NCBI GenBank assembly: GCA_945898215.1
Contig: CAMDHY010000019.1
Location: 1-51,992, forward strand
Origin: Pseudoxanthobacter soli DSM 19599
GTDB taxonomy: Bacteria; Pseudomonadota; Alphaproteobacteria; Rhizobiales; Segnochrobactraceae
Direction of reading: 5' to 3'
Length of the DNA: 51,992 nt
In this document: piece after piece, positions 17,903-34,116 of the stretch
Layout: each line of letters starts with the position of its first letter
Position numbering within the stretch: position 1 is the first letter of the stretch
Notes under the pieces: model-generated
Databases searched by the model: none
What the model was told of the DNA's origin: nothing
The model's input: the letters and a program-made list of their open reading frames with translations, nothing else
Made by a program: the position numbers and the translations under genes

Positions 17903-18928
17903 ATGCACAAGCGCTTCCTCATGGCGGCTTCCGCCCTCGCCCTGCTCGCGTCGACCGCCGTCACCGCGTCGGCGGCCACCGAGGTGCTCGTCTACACCGC
18001 GATCGAGGCCGACCAGCTGAAGACCTACGAAGCCGCGCTCGAGGCGGCGCATCCCGACGTCGACGTCCGCTTCGTCCGTGACTCCACTGGCATCGTCACC
18101 GCGAAGCTTCTCGCCGAGAAGGCGAACCCGCGCGCCGACGTCGTCATGGGCCTCGCCGCCACCTCTCTGATGCTGCTGGAGAAGGAGGGCATGCTGATGC
18201 CCTACGCCCCGGTCGGCCTCGAGGCGGTGAAGCCGACGATGCGCGATCCGGCGAACCCGCCGGCGTGGGTCGGCATGGACGTGTGGGCGTCCGCCATCTG
18301 CTTCAACATCGTCGAGGCTGCGAAGCGCGAGCTGAAGGCGCCGACCTCGTGGGCCGACCTCACCGACCCGGCCTACAAGGGCCAGATCACCATGCCGAAC
18401 CCGGCCTCCTCGGGCACCGGCTACCTGATGGTGTCGGCCTGGCTGCAGCTCTTGGGCGAAGAGAAGGGCTGGGCCTTCATGGATGCGCTCGACAAGAACA
18501 TCGCGAGCTACACCCACTCCGGCTCGAAGCCCTGCCGCCAGGCCGGCGCCGGCGAGTATGTCGTCGGTCTGTCGTTCGAGTATCGCGCCAACAAGACCAA
18601 AAAGGACGGCGCCCCGATCGATATCGTGCTCCCCTCCGAGGGCCTCGGCTGGGACATGGAGGCGACCGCCGTCATGTCGACGACGAAGCATCCGGAAGCC
18701 GCCAAGAAGGTCGCCGACTGGGCCGTGACGCCGGAGGCGAACAAGCTCTACGCGCAGAGCTACGCCATCGTCGCCCTGCCGGGCATCGCCGAGAAGCTCG
18801 AGTACATGCCGGGCGACGTCGAGGCGATGCTGATCAAGAGCGACTTCGCCTGGGCGGCCGAGAACCGCGAGCGCATCCTCGCCGAGTGGACGAAGCGCTA
18901 CGACAGCAAGTCCGAGCCGAAGAAGTAA
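17903..18928 (+). CDS. 2-aminoethylphosphonate-type ABC transporter substrate-binding protein
   Basis: Periplasmic binding protein of 341 residues for a phosphonate importer. A clear signal peptide ([18 protein letters not shown], cleavage near ASAATE) is followed by a two-lobed ferric-iron/putative-AEP binding fold ([19 protein letters not shown]; the [14 protein letters not shown] segment typical of this class). Two cysteines (in SAICFN and KPCRQ) are present in the mature protein. Specificity for AEP is inferred from the downstream FAD oxidase and PhnX; iron-binding proteins share the fold. The gene is first in the operon and is separated from the ATPase gene by three tandem hairpins, which probably raise its expression over the membrane components. 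Confidence 0.9.
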
Positions 18929-18947
18929 TCGCGCCACAACGCGGATC

Positions 18948-19017
18948 GCGGCGCCGCAAGCGCCGCGTCGATCCCCACGACCGGCCGGGTACTCCGGCCG
19001 GTCGCTGCTTTCGCAGC
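18948..19017 (+). other. Three tandem RNA hairpins between binding-protein and ATPase genes
   Basis: Three perfect stem-loops lie in the 107-base gap. The first has 7-bp arms (18948-18954 GCGGCGC, 18960-18966). The second has 10-bp arms (18979-18988 GACCGGCCGG, 18994-19003) around GTACT. The third has 5-bp arms (19004-19008 GCTGC, 19013-19017) around TTTC. No T-run follows, so they are unlikely to stop transcription completely. Such intercistronic stems are known to protect the upstream mRNA from 3' exonucleases and to limit readthrough, giving excess binding protein. This role is inferred here. Confidence 0.75.
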
Positions 19018-19035
19018 CGGCCGGAGGTCGCCGCC

Positions 19036-20193
19036 TTGCTCGACAAATCCGCGCCGCTCGCGCCTGCGCAGTACGCGCCGGCACCGCATGTGCCGCCACC
19101 GCCGCCGCCCGTACCCTATCTCGAAGTCCGCGGCCTGTCGAAGCGCTTCGGACCGTTCGTCGCCCTTCAGGACGTCGACCTCGACGTCTATCCCGGCGAG
19201 TTCGTGTCCTTCCTCGGACCGTCCGGCTGCGGGAAGACGACGCTGCTGCGCGCTATCTCCGGCCTCGATGTCCAGACCACCGGCAGCATCCGTCAGGCCG
19301 GCCGCGACATCTCCGACCTGCCGGTCAGCCGGCGCGACTTCGGCATCGTCTTCCAGTCCTATGCGCTCTTCCCGAACCTGACGATCGCCGACAATGTCGG
19401 CTACGGCCTCGTCTCCACAGGCCGCCCGCGCGCCGAGATCGCCAAGCGCGTCGAGGAGCTCCTGACGCTGGTCGGCCTCTCGGAGCAGGCGAAGAAGTAT
19501 CCGGCGCAGCTCTCCGGCGGCCAGCAGCAGCGCGTCGCGCTCGCCCGTGCGCTGGCGCTGTCGCCCGGGCTGCTGCTCCTCGACGAGCCGCTGTCGGCGC
19601 TCGATGCGCGCGTGCGGGCGCGACTGCGGGGTGAAGTCCGCGACCTGCAGCGTCGCCTCGGCATCACCACCATCATGGTGACGCACGACCAGGAAGAGGC
19701 GCTGACGATGTCGGACCGCATCGTCGTGATGAGCCGCGGCCGCATCGAGCAGGTTGGCACGCCCGACGAGATCTACGCCCGGCCGGCGACCGCCTTCGTC
19801 GCCGATTTCGTCGGCAAGATGAACTTCCTCAAGGGCCGCCTTGTCACCGCCGACCACGTCGAGGTGGCAGGAGCGACGCTCACACTCGCCGAGGGCATCG
19901 GCGTCGGCGCGGGAGCGGCGGTGACGGTCTGCCTAAGGCCCGAGGACATCGTCGTGCGGGCCGTGGAAGGTGACCGGCCGAACCGGCTCGCCATGCAGGT
20001 TGGCGTCATGGAATTCATCGGCAACCACTTCTCGACAACGCTCCACGCCGTCGGCACCAGCCTCAATCTCTCAGCCGACCTCTCGATCAACGACGTGCGC
20101 GACCTCGGCATCTGCCCCGGCGCCACGATCACCGTAGTGCTGCCGCCGGAGCGGCTTCGGGTGTTTCCCGATCCGCCGGCGACCGGTCACTGA
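19036..20193 (+). CDS. AEP-type ABC transporter ATP-binding protein
   Basis: Cytoplasmic ATPase of 385 residues energising the importer. Walker [12 protein letters not shown], signature [15 protein letters not shown], Walker [13 protein letters not shown] and switch His in MVTHDQEEA are all present, followed by a TOBE-type C-terminal regulatory domain. The start is TTG 19036, supported by a GGAGG ribosome binding site 8 bases upstream. This gives an unusual proline-rich N-terminal tail ([15 protein letters not shown]) before the conserved core. GTG 19090 would remove most of that tail but lacks such a site. The permease gene starts 10 bases after its stop. Confidence 0.92.
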
Positions 20194-20203
20194 GGCAGCG
20201 CGC

Positions 20204-21934
20204 GTGAGCACGGGCACCACGTTCGCCGCCGCCGGGGCGGCCCCGGCCGCATCAAGCGCGCGCGCCATCCGGCCGCGGCTGTCGCGCGACGACGTCACCC
20301 TGCGCCTGCTCGTGCTGGCGATCGTGGTCGCGCTCGTCGTCTTCGTCGTGCTGCCGCTCTCCGCCCTCCTCGGCAAGGCGCTCGAGGACCACGACGGCGC
20401 GTTCGTCGGCCTCGCCAACTTCGCCGCCTATTTCGGCGACCCGGCGCTCGCCGGCAACCTGTTCAACAGCCTGTGGATTTCGGCGCTGTCGACCGTCATC
20501 TGCGTGACGCTCGCCTTCGTCTTCGCCTACGGCCTGACGCGCACCTGCATGCCGGGCCGCGGCGTCTTCAAGGCGGTCGCCCAGATTCCGATCCTGGCGC
20601 CGTCGCTACTACCGGCGATCAGCCTCGTCTATCTCTTCGGCAATCAGGGCCTGCTCAAGGGCTGGCTGATGGGTGCCTCGATCTACGGGCCGATCGGCAT
20701 TGTCATCGGCGAGGTGTTCTGGACCTTCCCGCACGCCCTCATCATCCTGACGACGGCGCTGGCGATCTCCGACGCCCGCCTCTACGAGGCGGCGGAAGCG
20801 CTGCGCGCCTCGCAGCGGCGCATCTTCTTCACAGTCACCCTGCCGGGCGCCCGCTACGGGCTGATCAGCGCCATCTTTGTGGTCTTCACCCTCGTCATCA
20901 CCGACTTCGGCGTGCCGAAGGTGATCGGCGGACAGTTCGACGTGCTCGCCACCGACATCTACAAGCAGGTCGTCGGCCAGCAGAACTTCCAGATGGGGGC
21001 GGTGGTCGGCGTCGTGCTGCTTTTGCCGGCGGTGCTCGCCTTCGTCGGCGACCGTATCGTGCAGCGGCGGCAGGCAGCCCTCCTCTCGGCGCGCGCGGTA
21101 CCGCTGATCCCGAAGCCGAACCGGGCCGTCGACCTCACCTTCTTTGCGATCTGCTCCGTGATCGCGCTCGCGGTCCTCGTCATCCTGGCGGTGGCGGTGT
21201 TCGCGTCCCTCGCGACGTTCTGGCCGTACAACCTCACGCCGTCGCTCAAGAACTACGACTTCGACAACATGGACGGTGGCGGCTGGGCGAGCTACGGCAA
21301 CTCGCTGACGCTCGCGGCCCTCACCGCGGTGTTCGGCGCCGCCATCATCTTCACCGGCGCCTACGCGATCGAGAAGACGCCGCGCTTCGGCGCCGGCCGC
21401 GCCGTCGGCCAGTTGCTGGCGCTGCTGCCGCTCGCCGTGCCCGGCCTGGTGCTCGGCCTCGGCTACATCTTCTTCTTCAACGATCCGGCCAATCCGCTCG
21501 GCTTCCTCTACGGCGGCATGGCGATCCTGGTGATCTGCACGATCTCGCACTTCTACTCGGTCGCGCACCTCACCGCGACGACGGCGCTGAAGCAGATCGA
21601 CCCGGAGTTCGAGACCGTCTCTGCGTCGCTGAAGGTGCCGGTGTGGCGGACGTTCGCCGTCGTCACCGTGCCGGTCTGCCTGCCGGCGATCCTCGACATC
21701 GCCATCTATCTGTTCGTCAACGCAATGACGACGGTGTCGGCGCTGGTGTTCCTGTATTCTCCTGACACGACGCTCGCGGCGATCGCGGTGCTCAACATGG
21801 ATGACGCCGGCGATATCGCGCCGGCGGCGGCGATGGCGACGATGATCCTCCTCACCTCGGCGGCGGTGCGCATTGCCTACACGGTGCTGACGCGCGGTCT
21901 GCTCGGCCGCGCCCAGGCGTGGCGTCGCCGGTGA
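20204..21934 (+). CDS. AEP-type ABC transporter permease, fused two-domain
   Basis: A 576-residue inner-membrane protein with about 12 transmembrane helices, formed from two permease halves that are separate proteins in many importers. Each half has its EAA coupling loop: EAAEALRASQRRIFF near residue 196 and ETVSASLKVPVWRTF near residue 470. Fused permeases of this type accompany the putative AEP uptake systems. GTG 20204 is chosen because a GAGG site overlaps the ATPase stop just upstream. The 3' end overlaps the FAD oxidase start (GTGA at 21931-21934). Confidence 0.92.
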   Translation: MSTGTTFAAAGAAPAASSARAIRPRLSRDDVTLRLLVLAIVVALVVFVVLPLSALLGKALEDHDGAFVGLANFAAYFGDPALAGNLFNSLWISALSTVICVTLAFVFAYGLTRTCMPGRGVFKAVAQIPILAPSLLPAISLVYLFGNQGLLKGWLMGASIYGPIGIVIGEVFWTFPHALIILTTALAISDARLYEAAEALRASQRRIFFTVTLPGARYGLISAIFVVFTLVITDFGVPKVIGGQFDVLATDIYKQVVGQQNFQMGAVVGVVLLLPAVLAFVGDRIVQRRQAALLSARAVPLIPKPNRAVDLTFFAICSVIALAVLVILAVAVFASLATFWPYNLTPSLKNYDFDNMDGGGWASYGNSLTLAALTAVFGAAIIFTGAYAIEKTPRFGAGRAVGQLLALLPLAVPGLVLGLGYIFFFNDPANPLGFLYGGMAILVICTISHFYSVAHLTATTALKQIDPEFETVSASLKVPVWRTFAVVTVPVCLPAILDIAIYLFVNAMTTVSALVFLYSPDTTLAAIAVLNMDDAGDIAPAAAMATMILLTSAAVRIAYTVLTRGLLGRAQAWRRR

Positions 21935-23094
21935 GCGGACCGGCGTTCGACCTCGCCGTCGTCGGGGCCGGCATCTGCGGCCTCGCCCATGCGCTGGCGG
22001 CCGTGCGGCGCGGGCTATCGGTCGTCGTCATCGACCGCGACGCCCGCGCCAACGGCGCCTCGGTGCGCAATTTCGGCTTCGTCACCGTCACCGGCCAGGA
22101 GCGCGGCACGACGTGGCGGCGGGCGATGCGCTCGCGCGACGTCTGGGCCGAGATCGCCGGCCCGGCGGGCATCGCCGTCGAGCACCGCGGCCTCGCCGTC
22201 GTCGCGCGACGCGCGGAGGCCCGCGCGGTGCTCGAGGCTTTCCTGCGGACGGAAATGGGCGAAGGGTGCGATCTCCTCGACGCGGCGGAAGCGGCGGTGC
22301 GCCTGCCGGTCCTCTCCGGCGAACCGATCGCCGCCGTCTTGTGGAGCCCGCACGAACTGCGCGTCGAATCCCGCACGGCCATCCCGAAGCTCGCGGCTTT
22401 TCTCGCCGACCATCACGGCGTCGTCTTCCGGCGCGGCACCGCCGTTGTCGGCGTCGCGCCGCCGGTGGTCGAGACCAGCACGGGCACGGTGACGGCCGAG
22501 CGCGTCGTCGTCTGCCCGGGCGACGACCTCATCTCGCTCTATCCCGACCGGCTCGCCGCCTACGAACTCACGCGCTGCAAGCTGCACATGCTGCGCGTCG
22601 CGCCACCGACGCCGGACTTCCGCCTGCCGGCAGCGGTGATGTCCGACCTCGGGCTCGTCCGCTATCTCGGCTATGCGGTTCTGCCCGAGGCGGCGGCGCT
22701 GAAGGCCCGGCTTTCGGCCGAGCAGCCCGATGCGCTGGCGAACGGCGTCCACCTGATCGCCGTGCAGAGCGCCGACGGCTCGCTAGTGGTCGGCGATTCC
22801 CACCACTACGACGCGACGCCCGACCCGTTCGCGCCGCAGGCGGTGGACGACATCATCCTCGACGAGCTCAAGGCTGTGCTGGCGATCCCGGCGCCGGTGG
22901 TGACCGAGCGGTGGACCGGCACCTACGCCTCGGCCGCCGACCGGACGATGCTGGTCGATGCGCCGCATCCGCGCGTGCGCCTGGTCGTCATCACATCGGG
23001 CACGGGGGCGAGCACCTCGTTCGCCATCGCCGAGGAAGTTGTGGACGACCTCTTCGGCGCCGTTGCGCCGGCGACAACGGAGATTGCCTCGTGA
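21931..23094 (+). CDS. FAD-dependent oxidoreductase of phosphonate clusters (TIGR03364-like)
   Basis: Flavoprotein of the DAO family, 387 residues. The N-terminal dinucleotide-binding motif is VVGAGICGLAHALAAVRRG; a second FAD contact occurs near the C-terminus (VVITSGTGASTSFAIAEEV). Family members encoded beside phnX have been shown to oxidise AEP or N-methyl-AEP to phosphonoacetaldehyde. No phnW transaminase is present here, so this enzyme probably supplies the aldehyde for PhnX. The start overlaps the permease stop in GTGA (21931); GTG 21919 is an alternative adding four residues. It overlaps phnX by the same GTGA arrangement. The exact substrate is not decided by sequence. Confidence 0.88.
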   Translation: MSGPAFDLAVVGAGICGLAHALAAVRRGLSVVVIDRDARANGASVRNFGFVTVTGQERGTTWRRAMRSRDVWAEIAGPAGIAVEHRGLAVVARRAEARAVLEAFLRTEMGEGCDLLDAAEAAVRLPVLSGEPIAAVLWSPHELRVESRTAIPKLAAFLADHHGVVFRRGTAVVGVAPPVVETSTGTVTAERVVVCPGDDLISLYPDRLAAYELTRCKLHMLRVAPPTPDFRLPAAVMSDLGLVRYLGYAVLPEAAALKARLSAEQPDALANGVHLIAVQSADGSLVVGDSHHYDATPDPFAPQAVDDIILDELKAVLAIPAPVVTERWTGTYASAADRTMLVDAPHPRVRLVVITSGTGASTSFAIAEEVVDDLFGAVAPATTEIAS

Positions 23095-23906
23095 CGCTCG
23101 CTTTCCGGCATCTGAAGGCCGTCGTGTTCGACTGGGCGGGGACGATGGTCGACCACGGCTCGCTCGCGCCGATGGGCGTCTTCGTCGAGGCGTTCGCCGA
23201 GTTCGGCGTGACGCTCGCGATCGACGAAGCGCGCGGGCCGATGGGGATGGCGAAGCGCCCCCACATCGCCGCGCTGATGACGCTGCCGCGCGTCGCGGCG
23301 GAGTGGCGGCAGGTGCACGGTCGCGCGCCCTCTGAGGCGGACATCGACGCCCTCTACGCCGTCTTCGTCCCGAAGAACAAGGCGGTTGCCGCCCGCTACG
23401 CCGACCTCGTTCCGGGCGCGGCCGATGTCGCTGCAGCATTGCAGGCGGCCGGCGTGAAGCTCGGCTCCACCACCGGCTACACCCACGACATCATGGCCGA
23501 GATCACCCCCGTCGCCGCGGCCCAGGGCTACCGGCCCGATGCGCTTGTCTGCACCGGCGACACGCCAACCGGCCGCCCGAGCCCGCTGATGCTGTGGAAG
23601 GCGCTCGTCGACATGGACGTCTGGCCGGCGTCTTCGTGCGTCAAGGTCGACGACACCGAGGTCGGCATCGCCGAGGGCCTGAACGCCGGCGCCTGGACCG
23701 TCGGTGTCGCCGTCACCGGCAACGTCTTCGGCCTGTCGCTCGACGAGACACGGGCGCTTGCGCCGGCCGCCTTCGCTGCCCGCCGGGACGTCGCCCACAA
23801 CCGCCTGCTCGCCGCCGGCGCCCACGCCGTCATCGACGGCGTCGCCGACCTGCTGCCGGTGCTCTACGAGATCGAGGGCCGGATGGCGCGCGGCGAGCGG
23901 CCATAG
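23091..23906 (+). CDS. phnX: Phosphonoacetaldehyde hydrolase
   Basis: HAD-superfamily enzyme of 271 residues that cleaves the C-P bond of phosphonoacetaldehyde to acetaldehyde and phosphate. Asp14 and Ala16 in VVFDWAGTMVDHG are the catalytic nucleophile and characteristic Ala, and Lys55 in MGMAKRPHI is the Schiff-base lysine (Asp12, Ala14 and Lys53 in the Bacillus enzyme). TTGYTHDIM and KVDDTEVGIAEGLNAG complete the HAD core. Start GTG 23091 overlaps the oxidase stop, implying translational coupling. It is the last gene of the operon, 28 bases from a convergent gene. Confidence 0.96.
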   Translation: MTLAFRHLKAVVFDWAGTMVDHGSLAPMGVFVEAFAEFGVTLAIDEARGPMGMAKRPHIAALMTLPRVAAEWRQVHGRAPSEADIDALYAVFVPKNKAVAARYADLVPGAADVAAALQAAGVKLGSTTGYTHDIMAEITPVAAAQGYRPDALVCTGDTPTGRPSPLMLWKALVDMDVWPASSCVKVDDTEVGIAEGLNAGAWTVGVAVTGNVFGLSLDETRALAPAAFAARRDVAHNRLLAAGAHAVIDGVADLLPVLYEIEGRMARGERP

Positions 23907-23934: not shown

Positions 23935-24612
23935 TCACGCGTCTCCCGGAACGCCGAACGACGGTGCGGCCGTCGGGTCCAGGGCGCGCGTCACATAGGC
24001 GTCGGCCTGGGGCCGGTAGACCTCCCACGCGCGGGTCAACGCGGCGACGGGACAACCGTCGTCGAGCCAGTCGATGCGCAGGTCCGCATAGGGCCAGCTC
24101 GTCCGATCCACGACCAGCAGACCGGCCGAGCGGACGGGTCCCGCCTCGCCCCCGGTGGCGATCGCCGCCCGCATCGCCGCGATCAGGCGGTCGCCGAGCG
24201 GTCCGGCGGCGGCCGCGAAGGCGGCGACCATGGCGGCGGGCACGCTTTCGCTGGCGAGCAGGTTTCCCCCGGCCGCGCAGTCGCTCCCCTCCGCGGCCGC
24301 CCAGATGCCGAGCGCCTTCGCACCGGAGTGGACGGCCGTCCGCCCGCCGGCATCGACGGCGAGCAACTGGCGGTAGTCGGGGAAGCCGTCGGCGTCGCGC
24401 GCCGCGGCGACCGCCGTCGCGGCACTCGCCCCGGCCGCCAGGCGGTCGAGCATCAGCGGGCCGAGGGCCGGATTCGTGACGTTCTGCGTCGCCACCGCGC
24501 CGAGACCTGCGCGAGCATGAGCGCAGCGCGCCGCGACCGCGGGTGACGACGAGGAGATGGCGACGCCGAACTGGCCGGAGCGCACACAGCGTGCGACGAT
24601 GGAAAAGGTCAT
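23935..24612 (-). CDS. DUF1028 family protein (Ntn-hydrolase-like)
   Basis: A 225-residue protein of the DUF1028 family, opening MTFSIVARCVRSGQFGVAIS and containing the family's GLGAVATQN and G-x-x-L-A-S-E-S-V patterns. The fold resembles Ntn hydrolases, and members are often encoded next to RidA, as here; the biochemical reaction is unknown. Start ATG 24612 has a GGGAGA ribosome binding site. It is the last gene of the minus-strand amine operon, 106 bases after ridA, the largest gap within that operon, so a separate promoter is possible. Confidence 0.88.
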   Translation of the reverse strand: MTFSIVARCVRSGQFGVAISSSSPAVAARCAHARAGLGAVATQNVTNPALGPLMLDRLAAGASAATAVAAARDADGFPDYRQLLAVDAGGRTAVHSGAKALGIWAAAEGSDCAAGGNLLASESVPAAMVAAFAAAAGPLGDRLIAAMRAAIATGGEAGPVRSAGLLVVDRTSWPYADLRIDWLDDGCPVAALTRAWEVYRPQADAYVTRALDPTAAPSFGVPGDA

Positions 24613-24718: not shown

Positions 24719-25132
24719 TCAGTCCGGGATCATCGCCGTGGCGTCGATCTCCACCAGCCATTCCGGCCGGGCGAGGCAGGTGACGACGATGCCTGTCGAG
24801 ACCGGATGCACACCCTTGATGTATTCGCCCATGGTCCGGTAGACGGCCTCGCGGTGGCGGACGTCGGTCAGGTAGACCACCACCTTGCACAGGTGCTCCA
24901 TCCGGCCGCCGGCCTCCTCGATCAGCTGCCGGATGTTCTGCATCACCTTGTGGGTCTGCGCGACCGGATCATGGCTGTCGAGGTTCTTGGCGCTGTCGAG
25001 GTCCTGCGGGCACTGGCCGCGCAGGAAGATCATCGTGCCGCGCGCCACCACCGCCTGGCAGAGGTCGTTGTCGAGCTTCTGCTCCGGATAGGTGTCCTTG
25101 GTGTTGAACTTGCGGATGCGGGTGTGGGCCAT
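24719..25132 (-). CDS. RidA family protein (enamine/imine deaminase-like)
   Basis: A 137-residue member of the RidA/YjgF/YER057c family, which hydrolyses reactive enamine or imine intermediates to carbonyl compounds and ammonia. The C-terminal CLARPEWLVEIDATAMI segment contains the arginine and glutamate expected at the active site, and TDVRHREAVYRTMGEYI is typical. Amine dehydrogenases make imines, so a RidA in an operon with a histamine-dehydrogenase homologue makes chemical sense (inference). It starts 31 bases after the monooxygenase stop. Confidence 0.93.
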   Translation of the reverse strand: MAHTRIRKFNTKDTYPEQKLDNDLCQAVVARGTMIFLRGQCPQDLDSAKNLDSHDPVAQTHKVMQNIRQLIEEAGGRMEHLCKVVVYLTDVRHREAVYRTMGEYIKGVHPVSTGIVVTCLARPEWLVEIDATAMIPD

Positions 25133-25163: not shown

Positions 25164-26435
25164 TCAGGGCGCGGTCGGCGCGAGGCGCAGCTCCGCCGGC
25201 CTGTAGGCGAAGTAGCTCCGCTTCCGGGCGATGTGGTCGGCGACGGCACGCGCATCGTGCCAGACGCCCCAGATGAAGGACGAGCCGCGTCTCGTCTGCC
25301 AGGGCAGGCCGAGGAAGTAGATTCCGGGCTCGGCGCCGACACCGCGCTGGTGCTTCGGGCGGCCCTCGGCGTCGACCACGTCGAGCTTCAGCCAGGAAAA
25401 GTCGGAGGAATAGCCCGTCGCCCAGATCACCGTCGTGATGCCGGCGGCGGCGAGGTCGAGTTCACGGATCGGCTCGCGGACACACGCGGGGTCCGGGGGG
25501 ATTTCGCGGGCCGCCGGCTCCTCGGGCAGGTCGAGCCCGTTGCGGGCGACGTAGGCGTCGGCCTCGTCCAGCAAAGCGAGATAGTCGGCGTCGCCCTTGG
25601 CGAGGTTGCGGGCGAGATCCGGCGCCAGGGCGATCCTGCCGTCGTGCCAGGCCTCGGTCCGGCCGAGGAGGGTGATCCCATCGGCAGCGAAGCGGCGGAA
25701 ATCGACGGTGCGCCCGCCGTGGGCGCCGCTGACGGCGATCGTCGTGTGCTCGACACCCGGCACCACCTCGGCATCCCACTTGTTGAGGACGCCGAGCCAC
25801 CAGCAGAAGTCCTGGCCGCGGTACCAGCGCGGCGGCCGACCGTGCGGGCCGACCGAGAGATACACCTGCCGACCGGACTCCTGCAGCTCCTGAGCGATCT
25901 GGGCGCCGGAGGAGCCGGAGCCGACGACGAGCACCGCGCCGGCGGGAAGCTGATCCGGGTTGCGGTAGGCGGCGGAATGGATCTGGAGGATCCCGGCGGT
26001 GTCCGGGATGAGCCGCGGGACCACCGGGGTCTGGAAGGCGCCGGTGGCGGCGATCACCGAGCCGGCCTCGTAGGCGCCGGCCGACGTCTCCACCCGGAAG
26101 CCGGGGCGGCCGGCGCGCCGCGTCACCGACTGCACCTCGACGCCGGTGCGGATCGGGGCGGCGATCTTCCCGGCATAGGCGACGAAGTAGTCGGCCACCT
26201 CCTCCTTGCCGGGGAAGCCGTCTGCGGCACTGGCAAACTCCATGTTCGGGAAGCGGTCGTGCCAGGCGGGGCCGTTGGCGACCAGCGAATCCCAACGGCC
26301 GCTTCGCCAGCGCTCGGCGATCCGGTCGCGTTCGAGGACGACGTGGTCGATGCCGTAGCCACGGAGATGTTCGCTCGCGGCTATGCCTGCCTGGCCGGCG
26401 CCGACCACCAGGACGGAGACGTGTTCTACGGACAT
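25164..26435 (-). CDS. Flavin-containing monooxygenase-type oxidoreductase
   Basis: A 423-residue FAD/NAD(P)H protein of the FMO/CzcO class. FAD-binding VVGAGQAGIAASEHL lies at residues 9-23, an FMO-like ILQIHSAAY motif near 140, and the NADPH-binding VVGSGSSGAQIAQEL near 165; IWATGYSSDFSWL is the C-terminal ATG motif. Such enzymes hydroxylate soft nucleophiles (N or S) or perform Baeyer-Villiger reactions. The substrate here is probably the operon's amine or a breakdown product. ATG 26435 has a purine-rich GGAGGGGG site just upstream; a longer open frame to 26621 lacks family similarity. Gap to the upstream flavoprotein gene is 55 bases. Confidence 0.88.
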   Translation of the reverse strand: MSVEHVSVLVVGAGQAGIAASEHLRGYGIDHVVLERDRIAERWRSGRWDSLVANGPAWHDRFPNMEFASAADGFPGKEEVADYFVAYAGKIAAPIRTGVEVQSVTRRAGRPGFRVETSAGAYEAGSVIAATGAFQTPVVPRLIPDTAGILQIHSAAYRNPDQLPAGAVLVVGSGSSGAQIAQELQESGRQVYLSVGPHGRPPRWYRGQDFCWWLGVLNKWDAEVVPGVEHTTIAVSGAHGGRTVDFRRFAADGITLLGRTEAWHDGRIALAPDLARNLAKGDADYLALLDEADAYVARNGLDLPEEPAAREIPPDPACVREPIRELDLAAAGITTVIWATGYSSDFSWLKLDVVDAEGRPKHQRGVGAEPGIYFLGLPWQTRRGSSFIWGVWHDARAVADHIARKRSYFAYRPAELRLAPTAP

Positions 26436-26490: not shown

Positions 26491-28563
26491 TCATGGCGCA
26501 AGCTCCGCCAGTTCGCGCCGGAACGGCAAGGCGTCGCCGATATCGGGCGCGTCGAGCTCCTCGGCGTAGCGCCGCCCCGCATAGGTCGCCCAGGCGATCG
26601 GACCGGGGGCGGCTGCGTCACCGATCACCTTCAGCGACTGGATGCCGGCCGCGGCCCAGTCGCGCTCGCGGAGCTCGAGATAAAGCGCGTCGTTCGGGGT
26701 GCGGCTCGTGACGAGCACCACCGCCTCCGCCGGCACCGACGTGCGGGCACCGGTCCAGGTGCAGCCGAGGGTCACCTCGCCGGCACCGATCACTTCGGGC
26801 GCCTTGCTGGGCACCACGTCGATCCCGAGCGATAGCAGCCGACGCATGATCACCCCCTGCTCCAGCGTGTTCTCCGTCCACTCGGCCACCTTCGTCGCCG
26901 GCGTGATGAAGGCGACCCGGCAGCCGCGGGCGGCCAACACCTCGGCGATCACCGAGCCCATGTAGAAGTGGTCGTCGTCATAGAGCAGCACGCGCCCGCC
27001 CACGGGACCGCCACCGGCCATCACGTCGTCCGGCGTGAACAGGGGCATCGCCGGATCGGTCGGGATCGGCGCGAGGTGCAGGCGCGCCACCACGTCCCGA
27101 CGCCAGGTCGACCCGGTGGCGATGGCGACGTGCTCGAAGCCCATGTCGAGCACTTCGTCGGCGGTGAGCCGGCTGTCGAGATAGGTCTCGACGTTCGCCA
27201 TCGGCGCGATCTGGCCGGTGCGGAAATCGGCGACGCGGCCCCAGGCGGAGAGGCCGGGCAGCTGGCGTTCGCGCTCCACGCGGCCGCCGAGCGTCGTCGT
27301 CGCCTCGGCGAGCGCAACGCGGTAGCCGCGCTTGCCGAGTTGCAGCGCCGCCTCGAGCCCGGTCGGCCCGGCGCCGACGATCAGCACCGACTCGGACGGC
27401 CCCTTCGGACGCGCGCGCTCCGGGTGCCAGCCCTTGCGCCACTCCTCCATGAAGGCGGTGTTCTGGGTGCAGCGGCTGATGGCGCCGGTCATGTCGCCGC
27501 TGACGCAGATGTTGCAGCCGATGCACTCGCGGATGTCGTCGAAGCGCCCCTCCTCGATCTTGCGCGGCAGGAACGGGTCGGCAATCGAGGGCCGCGCCGC
27601 GCCGATGAAGTCGAGGATGCCCTGGCGCACCTGCCGCACCATCGCGTCCGCCGAGGTGAAGCGGCCGACGCCCACCACTGGCTTCGGCGTCAGCGCCTTG
27701 ATGCCGGCGACGAGATCCTCCTGCGCCCCCTCCCCCACGAAGCGCGAGGTACCGGAGCAGTTCTCCCAGGTGCCGTGGGCGAGGTCCCACAGGTCCGGCA
27801 GATCGGCGTTGAGCGCGATGAACTCGCGCAGCTCCGCATTCGACAGGCCGAGCGTGCCCTCCTCGTGCAGCGACAGCCGCAGCGTGATCGCCATCTCGTC
27901 GCGCGTTTCCTCGCGCAGCTCGGCGATCACCTCGCGGACGAAGCGCGAGCGGTTGTCGAGGCTGCCGCCGTATTCGTCGCCGCGCTGGTTGGTGGCGCGC
28001 GACAGGAAGTGCTGGAAGATGCCGAAGCCGTGGGCGCCGTAGAGGCAGACGAGGTCGAAGCCGGCGGTGCGCGCCCGCCGCACGGCGTTGCAGAACCAGC
28101 GGCGGATGTTGCGGATGTCGTCGCGGTCGACCGTGCGCGCCTGGACCGGATCGGCGGTGAAGGTGAGGATCGGCCCGCCCGTCACGGCGAGCGGCACCTC
28201 GCGGCTGTAGAGGTTCGGCCCGTTGATGCCGGAATAGGCGAGCTGGATGCCGGCGAGTGCACCGTGAGACTTCATGGCGTCGGCCATGCGGGCGAGCGCC
28301 GGGATCTCGCGATCGTCCCACAGGCGCTGCTCGATGAAGGGCGTGATCTCCGAGGTCTGGTGGATCTCGGTCTGCTCGGTGAAGATGACGCCCCAGCCGC
28401 CCTCCGCCTTGGTGCGGCGCATCTCGGCCACCGCCGAGGGGTCGCGGTAGCCGCCGCCATTGCAGTGCGGCACCTGGTAGAAGCGGTTCTTGGCGAGCTT
28501 CGGCCCGATGCGCACCGGCTCGAAGAGGACGTCGTAACGGGCGGGACGGGCGTTCGTGTCCAT
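26491..28563 (-). CDS. Histamine-dehydrogenase-like 6-S-cysteinyl-FMN / 4Fe-4S flavoprotein
   Basis: A 690-residue member of the trimethylamine dehydrogenase family, which oxidatively deaminates amines to aldehydes. Cys34 in FYQVPHCNGGG is the covalent FMN site (Cys30 in TMADH). The iron-sulfur ligands are Cys347, 350, 353 and 365. The ADP-binding motif is VLIVGAGPTGLEAA near residue 393. The substrate bowl of TMADH (Tyr60/Trp264/Trp355) is replaced by Gln64/Trp266/Asp357, the set described for Nocardioides simplex histamine dehydrogenase (Gln65/Trp267/Asp358). The ETF-contact Tyr442 is Met474, also as in that enzyme, where it is not conserved. Amine specificity is inferred; histamine, agmatine or another diamine could be the substrate. 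It starts three bases after the hydrolase stop codon. Confidence 0.9.
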   Translation of the reverse strand: MDTNARPARYDVLFEPVRIGPKLAKNRFYQVPHCNGGGYRDPSAVAEMRRTKAEGGWGVIFTEQTEIHQTSEITPFIEQRLWDDREIPALARMADAMKSHGALAGIQLAYSGINGPNLYSREVPLAVTGGPILTFTADPVQARTVDRDDIRNIRRWFCNAVRRARTAGFDLVCLYGAHGFGIFQHFLSRATNQRGDEYGGSLDNRSRFVREVIAELREETRDEMAITLRLSLHEEGTLGLSNAELREFIALNADLPDLWDLAHGTWENCSGTSRFVGEGAQEDLVAGIKALTPKPVVGVGRFTSADAMVRQVRQGILDFIGAARPSIADPFLPRKIEEGRFDDIRECIGCNICVSGDMTGAISRCTQNTAFMEEWRKGWHPERARPKGPSESVLIVGAGPTGLEAALQLGKRGYRVALAEATTTLGGRVERERQLPGLSAWGRVADFRTGQIAPMANVETYLDSRLTADEVLDMGFEHVAIATGSTWRRDVVARLHLAPIPTDPAMPLFTPDDVMAGGGPVGGRVLLYDDDHFYMGSVIAEVLAARGCRVAFITPATKVAEWTENTLEQGVIMRRLLSLGIDVVPSKAPEVIGAGEVTLGCTWTGARTSVPAEAVVLVTSRTPNDALYLELRERDWAAAGIQSLKVIGDAAAPGPIAWATYAGRRYAEELDAPDIGDALPFRRELAELAP

Positions 28564-28566
28564 GGC

Positions 28567-29322
28567 TCACTCGACGGGTCGGTAATCGCGGCCTTGTGTC
28601 GACAGGCGCGCGGGATCGGCGGGCAGCAGGTCGGCGATGAGCAGCGCCGGCCCGGGGCCGGCCTGCGCCAGGACGGTGGCGTCCGCCGAGACGAGGCAGG
28701 AGCCGCCGGTGTAGGTGAGGTCGCCCTCGCTGCCGCAATGGTTGGCGTAGGCGATCGCGACGCCGTGGATAACGGCCTGCGCCGGCACCGTCACCGACGG
28801 CACGTGCGTGAACGGCTGCATGTTCGCCGTCGGGCAGAGGACGAGCTGGACGCCGCGGTCGGCGAGCGTTCTCAACAGCTGCGGGAACTCGACGTCGTAG
28901 CAGATCAACAGCGCCGTGCTGGTGCCGTCGAGGTCGAAGGTCACCAGCCGGTCGCCTGGTACGAAGAAGTGCTTCTCCCGGGCGCCGTAGAGCTGCGTCT
29001 TGCGGTAGAGCGCCAGCCGCCGCCCGTCGGCGCCCCAGGCCATCGCGGTGTTGTAAAGCGCCTCGCCGTCGCGCTCGGCGACGCCGACGGCCAGCGCGCA
29101 GCCGGCTTTCGCGGCGAGCGGGCCGAGCACGTCGTCCCAGCCGTCCGCCGTGCGCGCGCCGACGCCCGGGTCGGCGACGTTGTAGCCCGGCAGGAAGAGC
29201 TCCGGGAACAGCGCCACCTGCGCCCCCCGCGCCGCCGCAGCCGTGAGCGACGACGTCAGGGACGCAAGGGCCCGTTCCGTCGCCCCGGCGGGCGACGGAT
29301 CCTGCACGACAGCGATGCGCAT
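28567..29322 (-). CDS. Carbon-nitrogen hydrolase (nitrilase superfamily)
   Basis: A 251-residue amidase-like enzyme with the Glu-Lys-Cys triad: Glu in LFPELFLPGYN (about residue 41), Lys in YRKTQLYG (about 108) and Cys in LICYDVEFP (about 140). These hydrolyse amides, carbamoyl groups or nitriles; relatives include N-carbamoylputrescine amidase and omega-amidases. In this operon it could release ammonia from an acylated or carbamoylated amine, or hydrolyse an amide product (inference). It starts 22 bases after the binding-protein stop and is followed three bases later by the flavoprotein gene. Confidence 0.92.
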   Translation of the reverse strand: MRIAVVQDPSPAGATERALASLTSSLTAAAARGAQVALFPELFLPGYNVADPGVGARTADGWDDVLGPLAAKAGCALAVGVAERDGEALYNTAMAWGADGRRLALYRKTQLYGAREKHFFVPGDRLVTFDLDGTSTALLICYDVEFPQLLRTLADRGVQLVLCPTANMQPFTHVPSVTVPAQAVIHGVAIAYANHCGSEGDLTYTGGSCLVSADATVLAQAGPGPALLIADLLPADPARLSTQGRDYRPVE

Positions 29323-29344: not shown

Positions 29345-30376
29345 TTACTTCTTCAGGTTCAGCCAGATGGCGTCGTAGAGCTTCTGAGTCTCCTGGTCGC
29401 AGGCTTCGACGAAGTCGAACTTCATGCTGGCCGGCGGATTGTTCTCGGGGCTGTTCTTGATCGCGTCGTCGAGGAACGGCTCGACGCCCTTCACCCCGGC
29501 GGTGTAGGCGGCGTAGTTGGTGAGCGCCGCAGCGTTCTCCGGCACGAGCAGGAAGTTCATGAACTTCAGCGCGTTCTCGCGGTTCGGCGCATCCTTCAGG
29601 AGAACGACGTTGTCCATCCAGACGACGGCGCCTTCCTTCGGGTAGGCATATTCGATGTTCGCACCCTCGGCGCGGGCCTTCGAGGAGAAGCCGTTGTAGA
29701 TCATGCCGGCGGCGGCATCGCCGGAGACCAGCACGTCCTTGGCGGTGTCGGAGCCGAAGGAGGCCCAGGAGGGCTTCGCCTTCAGCAGCATGTCGTTCAG
29801 CGCCTTCAGCTGCGCCCGGTCGGTCGTGCACTGCGGGATGCCGAGGTACATGGAGCCGAGGGCGAGCACCTCGCCCTGGCTGTCAAGGACGTTGATGCGG
29901 CCCTTCAGCTCCTCCGGCGGGTCGAAGATGATGGCGAGCGAGCCGATGTCGCCCTTGTAGACGTCGCGGTTCACCGAGAACGCGGTGGAGCCCCACTGGT
30001 AGGGGATCGAATGGGTGCGGCCCGGATCGAACGGCACGTCGGCCCATTCCGCCTCGATGTTGGCGAAGTTCGACAGCTCCTCGGGCTTGAAGCTGTCGAG
30101 GAGGCCCTGATCGGCCATGATCTTGACCATGTAGTCGCCGGGCATCGCCACGTCGTACTGGCCGAGCTTGCCGGCCTTCAGGCTCGCGAGCAATGCCTCG
30201 TTGGACTCGTAGGTGTCCATCGTCACCTTGACGCCGGTCTCGCTCGTGAACTTGTCGAGGAGCGGCTGCGGCATGTACTCGAAGAAATTGTAGATCTTCA
30301 GTTCACCGTCGGCGAAGGCGGGGGAGACGAACAGCGTCGTGGCCAGGAGGGCGGTGGCGAGAAGCGATTTCTTCAT
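29345..30376 (-). CDS. Polyamine-type ABC transporter substrate-binding protein (PotD/PotF-like)
   Basis: Periplasmic binding protein of 343 residues. The signal peptide MKKSLLATALLATTLFVSPA is cleaved near AFADGE, and the mature part starts ELKIYNFFEYMPQPLLDKF, the standard PotD/PotF opening. YDVAMPGDYMV and PYQWGSTAF are conserved family segments near the ligand cleft. Start ATG 30376 has a very good AGGAGA site. Spermidine/putrescine-type proteins bind many cationic amines, so histamine or agmatine are reasonable ligands given the downstream genes. It follows the permease gene by 17 bases. Confidence 0.94.
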   Translation of the reverse strand: MKKSLLATALLATTLFVSPAFADGELKIYNFFEYMPQPLLDKFTSETGVKVTMDTYESNEALLASLKAGKLGQYDVAMPGDYMVKIMADQGLLDSFKPEELSNFANIEAEWADVPFDPGRTHSIPYQWGSTAFSVNRDVYKGDIGSLAIIFDPPEELKGRINVLDSQGEVLALGSMYLGIPQCTTDRAQLKALNDMLLKAKPSWASFGSDTAKDVLVSGDAAAGMIYNGFSSKARAEGANIEYAYPKEGAVVWMDNVVLLKDAPNRENALKFMNFLLVPENAAALTNYAAYTAGVKGVEPFLDDAIKNSPENNPPASMKFDFVEACDQETQKLYDAIWLNLKK

Positions 30377-30393: not shown

Positions 30394-31203
30394 TCAACGG
30401 GTCTTCTGCCCGATGCGGTTGGCGAGATAGCTGAGGGTGACGAAAACGACGGAGACCATGAGCATCAGCGTCGAGATCGCCATGATGTTCGGCTTGATGC
30501 CCTGCTTCACTGATCCGAAGATCGCGGTGGGCAGCGTCTCCATGCCAGCACCCTTGACGAAGTTGGTGATGATGAAGTCGTCGAGGCTGATGATGAAGGC
30601 GAGCAGCCAGCCGGAGATGATGCCCGGCATCATCAGGGGCAGCAGGATCAGCCGGAACGCCTGCCAGCGCGAGGCGTAGAGGTCGCGGGCGGCGAGCTCG
30701 TAGCTCTCCTCGATCCCCTGCATGCGGGCGGCGATCGGCAGGTAGGCGAAGGGGATGCAGAAGGTGATGTGGGCGACGAGGATGGTGCCGTAGCCGGTGC
30801 GCACGCCGATCGCCGTGAAGAACACCAGCGTCGCCACCGCGGTGACGATCTCCGGCACCATCAGCGGCAGGCTGATCAGCGCGTAGGAAGCCTGGCGTCC
30901 GTGGAAGCGCCCGCCGCGGATCATCGCGACGGCCGCCGCCAGGGCGATGACTGTCGCCGCCGTCGAGGCGAGCGCGGCGATGGAGAGCGAGTTCCAGGCC
31001 GCCGCCCGGAAGATCGGCGCCTCCGGGCCGGTGAAGACGTCGGCGTACCAGCGCAGCGAGAAGCCGGCCCAGTTGGTGATCGAACGGTCGTCGTTGAAGG
31101 AGTAGACCGCGATCACCGCCAGCGGCACGTAGAGGATCGTCAGGCAAAGCGCCGTCGTTAGCCCGAAGCCGGCATAGCGGCGCATGTCGGTCCGGGCCGC
31201 CAT
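30394..31203 (-). CDS. Polyamine-type ABC transporter permease (PotC-like)
   Basis: A 269-residue inner-membrane permease with about six helices. The EAA-type loop is [19 protein letters not shown], and [10 protein letters not shown] is the diagnostic PotC segment near the end. ATG 31203 overlaps the stop of the preceding permease gene by one base (TGATG), implying translational coupling. It pairs with the PotB-like subunit to form the channel. Confidence 0.95.
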
Positions 31204-32120
31204 CAGCGCCGCCCCCGCCCGGCGGCGCGCGCCTGCCACAGGAGCACGAGCAGCACGAGCGACATCAGGATCATTGCGACCGCGCCGCCGAACGGCCAGT
31301 TGCCCATGCTGCCGCGGAACTGCTCGTCGATCAGCGAGCCGATCATGTAGGTCTTGGCGCCGCCGAGGAGGTCGGGCGCCAGGAAGGCGCCGAGCGAGGG
31401 CACGAAGACGAGGATGCAGCCCGCGACGATGCCGGGCTTCACCACCGGCAGGACGATCTCGCGTAGCGTCGTCCACGGGCCGGCATAGAGGTCGCGCGCG
31501 GCTTCCGAGAGGGCGAAGTTGTAGCGCTCCACCGCCGCGTAGATCGGCAGCACCATGAACGGCAGATAGCTGTAGAAGAGCCCGAGTTGCACCGCCACGT
31601 CGGTGTTGATGATGCGCAGTGGCGCGTCGATCACCCCGATCGCCAGCAGGCCCTCGTTGAGCGGCCCCTGGTCCCGCAGCAGGAAGCGCAGCGACACGGT
31701 GCGGATCAAGAGGTTCACCCAGTAGGGCACCGTGATTAGGAACACCCAGAGCGCCCGGTGGCGCGGGCTGCGGGTGGCGATGAACCAGGCGGTCGGGAAG
31801 CCGATCAGCAGGCACAGCAGCGTCGCCAGCGCCGCCTGCCAGATCGAGCGCCAGAAAATGGCGATGTAGGTCCACTCGATCTGCGGCGGCTCGTCGCCGA
31901 ACAGGCCGCGGGTGACGAAGAACTGGTCGTAGGCGGCGAGGCTGAACTCCCAGACGACGCCGCCGCGGAAGTCCTTGGTGAGGACCGAATAGACGCCCAT
32001 CAGCACGACCGGCACGAGCAGGAACGTGCCGATCACCAGCCACGTCGGCAGCATCAGCGGCACGGCGAGCGACCGCCATCCCGTCGCCAAAGAGCCGGAT
32101 GCGTGGGGCGCGGCGGCCAT
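31203..32120 (-). CDS. Polyamine-type ABC transporter permease (PotB-like)
   Basis: A 305-residue inner-membrane permease. Six helices are visible, and the segment [18 protein letters not shown] is typical of PotB proteins; the coupling loop is [20 protein letters not shown] 32120 overlaps the ATPase stop by one base (TGATG). Together with the PotC-like protein and the ATPase it forms the membrane complex for uptake of the operon's amine. Confidence 0.95.
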
Positions 32121-33181
32121 CAGTCGAGGAGCAGGCGCGCGGCGCCCGCCTCCACGGTGAGCCCGACTTCGGCACCCGCCGCCGGCAGTTCATTGCGGCT
32201 GGAATTCTGCAGCCGCGTGATGATCGGCGTGCCGTCGGCAAGCCGCGCCAGAAGCTGCAGATCCGTGCCGAGATAGATCACCCGCTCGACCCGCGCAGTG
32301 AGGTCGGCGTCTGCGGTGGCGAGCGACAGGCGCTCCGGCCGGATCGAGACGTGGTGGGCGCCCGGCGCCAGCCCCTCGACCGCGTCGGTGGTGAGCACGT
32401 GGCCGCCCGGCAGGGTGATCCGGGCCCGGCCGTCGGCAACGGCGTCGACCATCACCGGCAGCACGTTCGTCTCGCCGATGAAGTCGGCGACGAAGCGGTT
32501 CACCGGCGCCTCATAGATCGTCCTGGGATCGCCGACCTGCTGCACCTGCCCGTTCGACATCACCGCGATGCGGTCGGACATCGCGAGCGCTTCCTCCTGG
32601 TCGTGCGTCACGAACACGAAGGTGATGCCCGTCGTCTCCTGCAGCTGCTTCAGCTCCACCCGCATCGCCTGGCGGAGCTTCAGGTCGAGCGCCGACAGCG
32701 GCTCGTCGAGGAGCAGCACGCGCGGCCGCGGCGCGAGTGCCCGGGCGAGCGCGACGCGCTGCTGCTGGCCGCCGGAGAGCTGCGTCGGCAGCCGGTCGGC
32801 GAAGTCGGAGAGGTGGACGAGTTCGAGCATCTCGGCGGCGCGGGCACGACGCTCGGCCGGCGCGACACCCTGCATCCTGAGGCCGAATCCGACGTTGTCG
32901 CGCACCGTCATGTGTGGGAACAGGGCGTACTGCTGGAACACCGTGTTGACCGGCCGCTTCTCCGGCGGCAACGCGGCGATGTTCTCGCCGTAGAGCGCGA
33001 TCTCACCGGCCGTCACGTCCTCGAAGCCGGCGATGGTGCGCAGCAGCGTCGTCTTTCCGCAGCCGGACGGCCCGAGCAGGGTGAAGAACTCATTGTCGGC
33101 GATCGATAGGGAGACGCCCTTCAGTGCCTCGAAGGCGCCATAGCGCTTGACGACCCGGTCGATGCCGATGGCTTGCCGCAT
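32120..33181 (-). CDS. Polyamine-type ABC transporter ATP-binding protein (PotA-like)
   Basis: A 353-residue ATPase and first gene of the amine operon. Walker [17 protein letters not shown], signature [15 protein letters not shown], Walker [16 protein letters not shown] and switch [16 protein letters not shown] are intact; a TOBE domain fills the C-terminus. ATG 33181 has a GGGAG site 5 bases upstream; a start at 33229 would add 16 residues running into the operator region. It is divergent from the LuxR-type gene across 113 bases with GGGGTAT repeats. Confidence 0.95.
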
Positions 33182-33227
33182 CACGCTCCCGCCGATGTCC
33201 AGGGCAGCTTGCCCGCACGGACATTTC

Positions 33228-33296
33228 ATACCCCTGCCACCTCGGATTCACGGTAAAACCGGCCGGCGACAGGGGTATATAACCCCAAGGGGGTAT
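33228..33296. promoter_or_regulatory. Putative operator: repeated GGGGTAT motifs between importer operon and luxR-type gene
   Basis: The heptamer GGGGTAT occurs inverted at 33228-33234 (ATACCCC) and direct at 33272-33278 and 33290-33296. The first two extend to a 9-bp inverted repeat, ATACCCCTG (33228-33236) and CAGGGGTAT (33270-33278). A 5-bp-arm palindrome GGGGT-ATATA-ACCCC (33272-33286) overlaps the second copy. The last copy includes the first bases of the luxR-type ATG, which suggests autoregulation. Binding by the adjacent LuxR-type protein is inference. Confidence 0.6.
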
Positions 33297-34116
33297 GTTG
33301 GAAGGACTGCCCAACACGGCCGAAGTGGCACTGGCGGATGCGATCCGTCTCGCCGGCAATCTGGGCTTCGAGGCTGCGCTCACCCGCTTCCTGCGCCGCA
33401 GTATTTCCTGCAACAACGTCGTGTTCATCGTGTATCGGCGATCGGCGACACCGGATATCCTGTATTCGCAGGCCGACGCCCCCATCGTCTTCAAGGATCT
33501 CTACCGGGTCTACGTGCCGGGAGCCTATCTGCTCGACCCCTATCACGACCTCCATCTCAACCGGATATCCCCGGGAGCCTATCGCCTCCTCGACATCGCG
33601 CCAGACCAGTTTCAGCGTAGCCAGTACTATCTCGATTACTATCGACAGACGACGCTGATCGACGAACTGACGTTTGTCAGCTATCCCGATGACGACAGCA
33701 CGCTGAACATCTGCCTCGGCCGCGACGCCTCGACGCCGCGCCTGTTCGGGACCGAGGCGCGCGAGACGGCGGTGCGGATCGCCCCCGTGGTCTCGGCCTT
33801 GGCCCACCGCCATTTTTCGCAGTTCAGTCGTCCGGCCCCGGTCACCGGGCCGGCACCGCATCAGGCCGACGAACCCGTCGCGCGCCTGCGCCGCGTTCTG
33901 GCGGAGCGCCACGGCATCCGTCTCTCGCACCGCCAGGCGCAGGTGTCGCTGCTCATCCTGCAGGGCCACTCGTCCGTGTCGATCGGATTGCGGCTCGGGG
34001 TGGCGGCGCAGACGGTGAAGGTGTTCAGGCGGCAGATCTACGCACGCTGCGGGCTGAGTTCACAGGCGGAACTCTTCGCCCTGCTGCTGCCACTCCTGAT
34101 CGGCGCGGAAGCATGA
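33295..34116 (+). CDS. LuxR-family transcriptional regulator
   Basis: A 273-residue regulator. The C-terminal ~60 residues form a LuxR/FixJ helix-turn-helix (LSHRQAQVSLLILQGHSS, then VAAQTVKVFRRQIYARCGL). The N-terminal ~190 residues show no receiver-domain aspartate or obvious autoinducer-binding pattern, so the signal is unknown; it may bind the operon's amine. It is divergent from the importer operon, and the repeated motifs in between are its probable target. Its end overlaps the tail of a small minus-strand frame. Confidence 0.85.
   Translation: MLEGLPNTAEVALADAIRLAGNLGFEAALTRFLRRSISCNNVVFIVYRRSATPDILYSQADAPIVFKDLYRVYVPGAYLLDPYHDLHLNRISPGAYRLLDIAPDQFQRSQYYLDYYRQTTLIDELTFVSYPDDDSTLNICLGRDASTPRLFGTEARETAVRIAPVVSALAHRHFSQFSRPAPVTGPAPHQADEPVARLRRVLAERHGIRLSHRQAQVSLLILQGHSSVSIGLRLGVAAQTVKVFRRQIYARCGLSSQAELFALLLPLLIGAEA

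Follow-up and report, generated by a model that had tools for sequence, protein, structure and literature searches.

A histamine dehydrogenase-type gene of Pseudoxanthobacter soli in a gene cluster resembling the Hin pathway of Pseudomonas

Published accounts of histamine degradation in Pseudomonas, as far as the portions consulted go, describe a route with the aminotransferase HinC, the aldehyde dehydrogenase HinD and the LysR regulator HinK. In this route hinFLHG encodes an FAD monooxygenase (EC 1.14.13.5), an enamine deaminase and two amidases, and the products are aspartate and then fumarate (PMC8231116, PMC6467879). Histamine dehydrogenase (HDH) serves in food-testing kits, and a commercial assay for histamine makes use of it (PMC8372101). 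The Rhizobium sp. 4-9 enzyme (6DE6) has been subjected to saturation mutagenesis, and Gln65, Trp267 and Asp358 of the N. simplex enzyme (3K30) are among the residues proposed to bind histamine (both from the sections seen of PMC10180351). Trimethylamine dehydrogenase (TMADH, 1DJN) belongs to the same family and likewise has a covalent-FMN cysteine (Cys30) and an Fe-S cluster. The literature found in open-licence PMC searches did not state the host role of HDH, and no description of HDH within a Hin-like cluster was found there.

We analysed a window of 51,992 nucleotides (the whole stretch of DNA under study) from P. soli DSM 19599. The genes potA, potB, potC, potD, a carbon-nitrogen (C-N) hydrolase, HDH, a flavin monooxygenase (FMO), RidA and DUF1028 follow one another on one strand, and neighbouring genes are separated by no more than 106 bp. 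The features are as follows.

28563..26491, minus strand: HDH, an open reading frame of 690 amino acids filling 26491-28563
25164..26435, minus strand: FMO, HinF-like, proposed imidazoleacetate monooxygenase (Pfam Pyr_redox_3; conserved HDH neighbour)
24719..25132, minus strand: RidA-family protein, HinL-like, proposed enamine/imine deaminase (PF01042; conserved neighbour)
23935..24612, minus strand: DUF1028 protein, HinH-like, proposed N-terminal-nucleophile amidohydrolase with Thr2 (PF06267; AlphaFold model)
28567..29322, minus strand: C-N hydrolase with Glu41/Lys108/Cys141 (PF00795), 3 bp upstream of HDH
29345..30376, minus strand: PotD-like substrate-binding protein (family scans and gene calling)
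30394..31203, minus strand: PotC-like permease (PF00528)
31203..32120, minus strand: PotB-like permease (family scans and gene calling; alternative start 32054)
32120..33229, minus strand: PotA-like ATPase (family scans)
33295..34116, plus strand: LuxR-type (GerE) regulator, divergent, a possible regulator of the cluster (PF00196)

The HinF-, HinL- and HinH-type genes, which were identified from family, gene order and partner genes and not from alignments to P. putida U proteins, are all present and contiguous downstream of HDH. Monooxygenase, RidA and amidase-type genes follow the same order as in Pseudomonas Hin (hinFLHG, hinD, hinC, hinK, hinA), and aldehyde dehydrogenase (ALDH), LysR and M20 genes, also known from Hin, occur in many HDH loci. 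In contrast, Pseudomonas has the aminotransferase HinC where the window has HDH, and the permease HinA where the window has a Pot-type ABC importer. Because no HinC-type aminotransferase was called in the window cluster, HDH being in its place, we describe the cluster as Hin-like, one that would work like Hin, and do not file it as a Hin pathway. HinD-type ALDH and HinG-type M20 genes are absent from the window cluster; the best copies in the same genome, 52% identical to reference copies, are on other contigs.

An AlphaFold model of the DUF1028 protein, made with 26 sequences, had a pLDDT of 91 and matched the DUF1028 structure 2IMH, with weak matches to proteasome- and asparaginase-type Ntn-hydrolases. 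All 26 sequences carry Thr2, but they had been picked for a Met-Thr start. The model and Thr2 would fit an amidohydrolase role. Glu41, Lys108 and Cys141 of the C-N hydrolase are kept in 9/9 family members. The LuxR-type family was found at 12 of 86 HDH loci, always opposite in orientation to HDH. The FMO gene may have a longer GTG start, up to 26621; this longer reading frame gave a Pyr_redox_3 match and below-cut-off matches to TIGR04046/ArsO.

HDH consists of an FMN domain with Cys34, the 4Fe-4S cysteines 347, 350, 353 and 365, and pyridine-nucleotide-oxidoreductase-like domains; Pfam matched Oxidored_FMN first and the latter domains after it. An earlier note, made from the sequence alone, had described a TMADH-family protein with Cys34 and these four cysteines, and the MAFFT alignment confirmed both Cys34 and the CxxCxxC...C arrangement. 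When the PDB was searched with phmmer, 6DE6 scored 1088 bits (E=0) and 3K30 817 bits (E=1.3e-244); 6L6J (645 bits) and TMADH 1DJN (475 bits) ranked lower. Given these two E values, the matches to 6DE6 and 3K30 are read as homology and not chance. Identity was 68% to a Rhizobium gallicum plasmid copy, 55% to N. simplex HDH and 39% to TMADH. Within the same genome, the next long match to HDH had 32% identity, and shorter partial matches had 34-42%. A single-sequence AlphaFold model of HDH reached a mean pLDDT of only 37 and was set aside.

In the phmmer alignment, Gln64, Trp266 and Asp357 pair with Gln65, Trp267 and Asp358 of 3K30 at a constant offset of one, just as the earlier note had claimed. 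Residues were also compared in a MAFFT alignment of 137 sequences. Cys34, Gln64, Ile73, Phe76, Glu78, Asn114, Tyr175, His178, Phe180, Trp266 and Asp357 are all the same in the R. gallicum copy. The same eleven positions match N. simplex HDH except Phe180, which is Tyr181 in 3K30 and Phe176 in the Rhizobium enzyme. The window HDH has every residue sought at the proposed histamine contacts (Q64, I73, F76, E78, N114, F180, W266 and D357), the corresponding N. simplex residues being those proposed in the part seen of PMC10180351.

TMADH differs at these positions. Its Tyr60, Asp69, Arg72, Ser74 and His110 stand where the window has Gln64, Ile73, Phe76, Glu78 and Asn114, and its Trp264 pairs with Trp266. 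The TMADH/DMADH signature, an aromatic bowl of Tyr60, Trp264 and Trp355 together with Tyr442, which contacts electron-transfer flavoprotein, is not present: the window HDH has Gln64, Trp266, no Trp at the Trp355 position and Arg443. Both phmmer and MAFFT pair Asp357 with TMADH Glu356 and leave Trp355 in an adjacent one-residue insertion, so the equivalence of Asp357 with Trp355 rests on the N. simplex structure study (2010), which is reportedly its source. The earlier note had placed Met474 at the position of Tyr442. This was a misalignment: phmmer and MAFFT both pair Tyr442 with Arg443, and Met474 lies 31 residues downstream. N. simplex HDH also has Arg at this position.

Among 96 relatives of at least 59% identity (a set cut by identity that excludes the window and in which L121 and L213 lie outside the 50-row tree clade described below), Q64, I73, E78, Y175, H178, W266, D357 and Arg443 are invariant; the number of relatives with the same residue is 89 for F76, 95 for N114 and 92 for F180. 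In 37 family members of lower identity, Gln64 was found in 10, Trp266 in 30, Asp357 in 27 and Arg443 in 36. Loss of Tyr442 is not specific to HDH, since Arg is near-universal outside TMADH. Trp266 and Asp357 were rejected as diagnostic residues because they are so common in the distant members. It is the full pocket signature that supports HDH; by themselves, these two residues cannot set it apart from the more distant family members.

One site departs from the characterised enzymes. Tyr175 and His178 of the Tyr-His-Asp triad are present, and the triad Asp (TMADH Asp267, N. simplex Asp270) is replaced by Cys269, so that Asn268-Cys269 supplies no acidic third member. Asp-Cys of Rhizobium HDH (Asp265) and Gly269-Asp270 of N. 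simplex align with this pair. Since these two HDHs carry the Asp at different alignment positions, it was not used to define the HDH group. Cys269 is common to 91 of the 96 relatives and Asp occurs at 268 in 76 of them; in relatives with 77-79% identity to the window, residue 268 is A, N, E or D. The Rhizobium enzyme shares the FMN and Fe-S cysteines, the full pocket and the Cys at 269 with the window HDH, but has Asp265 where the window HDH has Asn268. Saturation mutagenesis of Asp265 left no active variant, according to the part seen of PMC10180351. As Asn268 replaces this substitution-intolerant residue, the window HDH may differ in rate or pH behaviour.

A quick maximum-likelihood tree, which the earlier note had proposed as a check, was built from 91 of the 137 available rows; rows of at least 59% identity were thinned by about half, and all lower-identity rows and three PDB chains were kept. 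The window HDH groups with the characterised HDHs, apart from TMADH. It shares one 50-row clade with the 6DE6-like R. gallicum copy (100% SH-aLRT), and a fork with 95% support, which takes in 57 rows, unites this clade with 3K30. TMADH 1DJN lies at a distance, together with two genome sequences, on a long branch of its own (100% support). The nearest relatives of the window HDH on the tree are Rhodobacteraceae sequences. Horizontal transfer of the gene is likely, with a binning error as the alternative. Against shuffles, the Hin label clustered only weakly on the tree (26/500 as low).

By descent, the window gene very probably belongs to the histamine dehydrogenase group and most likely acts as a member of it. 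We prefer HDH to TMADH or DMADH because of the tree, the full pocket signature and, most strongly, the gene context. The same evidence bears out the earlier view that TMADH and DMADH are poor annotations, a view that had been reached without use of the gene context. Judged by sequence, the protein appears to be an ordinary HDH in a gene cluster that would explain it.

The HDH on R. gallicum IE4872 plasmid pRgalIE4872d (L125) differs from 6DE6 at 13/691 positions counted on the alignment, which is about 98% identity. Around it, in a record without annotation, we found matches to AspA, FMO, LysR, ALDH, RidA, DUF1028, M20 and PotA-D. The AspA-like gene matches Pfam Lyase_1 and is 53% identical to an Arthrobacter gene. 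This locus links a structurally solved, assayed enzyme to a Hin-like gene set and, provided that the assignments are correct, would span the whole route between uptake and fumarate. The window shares the Hin-like genes beside HDH. Unlike the R. gallicum locus, it has the C-N hydrolase and the LuxR-type regulator, and it is without adjacent ALDH, M20, LysR and AspA genes.

The FMO-RidA-DUF1028-M20 module was also found beside other enzymes. In one bacterial family (f215), all seven genomes having FMO show the order FMO-RidA-DUF1028-M20, which matches the published order and functions of hinFLHG. Because OprF scored 278-328 bits in these seven genomes, whereas five genomes from other families gave 24-30 bits or no match, they are taken to be Pseudomonadaceae. 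One of their loci (L221) has LysR, ALDH and class-III aminotransferase genes beside the module, as does a locus of another family (L226). On an Arthrobacter plasmid (L129) the same module, with ALDH and aspartate ammonia-lyase, stands beside a primary-amine oxidase where the window has HDH. On a Klebsiella and an Acetobacter plasmid it lies beside a GMC oxidoreductase, ALDH and a permease. Plasmid regions of Burkholderia, Pantoea, Streptomyces and Mycolicibacterium have the module without an amine-removing partner. An Agrobacterium vitis plasmid region has FMO alone, and a Shinella plasmid region has HDH with ALDH, RidA, DUF1028 and M20, with no FMO within the stretch. Since the module pairs elsewhere with an amine oxidase, a GMC oxidoreductase or an aminotransferase, HDH would by analogy fill the slot of the amine-removing enzyme.

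We compared the surroundings of 86 HDH loci (80 from a search listing, five from genomes, and the window). RidA and DUF1028 were each called at 51, FMO at 47, LysR at 45, M20 deacylase at 40, PotD type at 29, PotB and PotC at 28 each, PotA type at 27 and ALDH at 24. These counts are lower bounds, as there are six loci of lower GC content (L072, L101, L115, L118, L122 and L124) where the gene caller missed even HDH, and the PotA family as called includes other ABC ATPases, such as PhnT2 of the window. When the count was restricted to loci flanked on either side by 8 kb or more, the window included, FMO, RidA or DUF1028 lay near 39/57 HDH loci. By tblastn, none was found at nine paralogue loci, which are stretches of 13-20 kb surrounding family members with 47-57% identity (p=1.3e-4). 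All four module genes occur together in 27 of the 57. In 18 of the 57 no FMO, RidA or DUF1028 was called; the caller failed at five of these, and for L101, likewise among the 18, tblastn did show FMO and DUF1028. Two members of 57-58% identity with the HDH pocket do lie in Hin-like clusters alongside an HDH of 68-69% identity, adjacent to it in L034 and about 8.6 kb away in L033.

Genome samples gave the same association. In a phylum sample of 398 genomes, FMO was found in 9/9 genomes with an HDH of at least 60% identity versus 26/389 others, and in 1/6 genomes with only lower-identity family members. In a class sample of 289 genomes, the corresponding figures were 5/7, 4/282 and 1/22. The two samples overlap, and six of the nine genomes with HDH and FMO are of one genus.

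We propose the following route, in which the HDH substrate, the order of reactions, the Hin equivalences and the roles of the neighbours are drawn by analogy. Histamine would be taken up by the Pot-like ABC transporter. HDH, standing in for HinC, would perform the first step: its FMN, bound covalently at Cys34, would accept electrons from histamine, with imidazole acetaldehyde and ammonia as products. The electrons would pass from FMN to the 4Fe-4S cluster and on to an acceptor. An ALDH, with candidates elsewhere in the genome, would convert the aldehyde to imidazoleacetate, whose ring the HinF-like FMO would hydroxylate. Ring opening and deamination would involve RidA (HinL-like) and DUF1028 (HinH-like). 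The final deacylation to aspartate would be carried out by an M20 enzyme, again with candidates elsewhere, or possibly by the adjacent C-N hydrolase. As a stand-in for M20 the C-N hydrolase is only suggestive: of the 86 loci, many of them on truncated contigs, 5 have both, 14 have only the C-N hydrolase, 35 have only M20 and 32 have neither.

The main substrate of HDH could instead be agmatine, 1,3-diaminopropane or a polyamine, served by the Pot transporter and the C-N hydrolase, with the Hin-like module separate. We consider this unlikely, even though Rhizobium HDH oxidises agmatine at 10% and 1,3-diaminopropane at 13% of the histamine rate (from the part seen of PMC10180351). The window ABC genes match polyamine transporter models, below the cut-offs apart from a broad potA subfamily model, and the C-N hydrolase scored 69 bits against the N-carbamoylputrescine amidase model (cut-off 410). 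Moreover, at 11 of the 86 loci, several of them on short contigs, there are genes for a deacetylase, an amidase or another C-N hydrolase but no Hin genes, and 6 loci have both (p=0.012 in the 86 loci, 0.09 in the 57 full-flank loci); this hints at other substrates, and some members may serve other amines. However, HDH is tightly linked to and co-occurs with FMO-RidA-DUF1028, a module also found beside other amine-removing enzymes, and the window pocket equals that of characterised HDHs. The earlier note had allowed for a similar cationic diamine as well; the neighbour genes favour histamine as the likely substrate.

The missing triad Asp raises another reading, that of an altered HDH which is weak, or which acts on methylhistamine or on an imidazole amine freed by the C-N hydrolase, for example from N-acylhistamine. 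Asn268-Cys269 and the variation at 268 in relatives of 77-79% identity would agree with it, as would the position of the C-N hydrolase family: at 7 of its 9 loci, most of them from the window subclade and the window among them, it sits immediately upstream of HDH. Yet the remaining pocket residues are intact, Cys269 is shared by most relatives, including the near-copy of the active enzyme 6DE6, and N. simplex HDH has Gly aligned with 268, which makes this reading quite improbable. Hardly to be expected is a methylamine-type (TMADH/DMADH) or nicotine-pathway (Pno-like) enzyme linked to electron-transfer flavoprotein (ETF). Such enzymes are of the same superfamily, and the Agrobacterium S33 enzyme Pno shares 46-48% identity with HDHs and likewise has polyamine-type ABC genes in its cluster (in the part seen of PMC5500553). 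Against this stand the separate TMADH branch, the five differing pocket positions from Tyr60 to His110 and the lack of ETF among the window cluster genes scanned. The earlier note had inferred an acceptor other than ETF for HDH; no ETF was seen among the window cluster genes scanned, a separate ETF pair is present elsewhere in the genome, and the claim is neither supported nor refuted.

With histamine as the favoured substrate, the window cluster is a new combination of known parts that appears undescribed within the literature searched. More broadly, FMO-RidA-DUF1028-M20 is probably a portable imidazoleacetate module that four or more unrelated enzymes can feed, namely an aminotransferase, a primary-amine oxidase, a GMC oxidoreductase and HDH, with HDH as the common alphaproteobacterial entry. 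If so, HDH gains a physiological role and a DUF1028 subfamily gains a function as HinH amidohydrolase, and histamine catabolism is predicted in Rhodobacteraceae, Mesorhizobium and Rhizobium. Histamine use is likewise predicted for marine and soil alphaproteobacteria. In R. gallicum, where a near-copy of a crystallised HDH shares one locus with a transporter, ALDH, the module and an aspartase-like gene, the role becomes testable in a plant symbiont. The plasmid records listed name such genes only as FAD-dependent oxidoreductase or NAD(P)-binding protein, or leave them unnamed.

In the tree, all other members of the subclade of the window histamine dehydrogenase (HDH; 26491-28563) are from Rhodobacteraceae, whereas the host genome belongs to an order that apparently includes Mesorhizobium. 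Horizontal transfer of the HDH gene is therefore probable.

Two of the compared loci, L033 and L034, carry two family members per cluster, an HDH with 68-69% identity to the window HDH and a second member with 57-58%. The second member has the HDH pocket and retains the triad Asp, as WDNDS. It neighbours the 68-69% HDH in L034 and is separated from it by ∼8.6 kb in L033.

Among the HDH loci that lack the Hin genes, six (L035, L036, L096, L111, L112 and L119) each contain at least two of three gene types: histone-deacetylase-fold, amidase and C-N hydrolase. This suggests that HDH in these loci acts on a different substrate, or an acylated one. The histone-deacetylase-fold gene perhaps encodes an acetylpolyamine deacetylase.

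The HDH cluster is convergent with a second gene set in the window:

17903-23906, + strand, 2-aminoethylphosphonate cassette (PhnS2, PhnT2, PhnU2, TIGR03364 FAD oxidoreductase, PhnX; NCBIfam)

All five matches exceed their NCBIfam cut-offs. The TIGR03364 family has the proposed name HpnW. As proposed for the HDH cluster, a flavoprotein may take the transaminase role in this cassette.

Matches to the flavin monooxygenase (FMO) were found in 234 plasmid records, 105 of them from Klebsiella. In the single Klebsiella plasmid record examined, FMO is part of an FMO-RidA-DUF1028-argE set, neighboured by ALDH, GMC oxidoreductase and cytosine permease genes.
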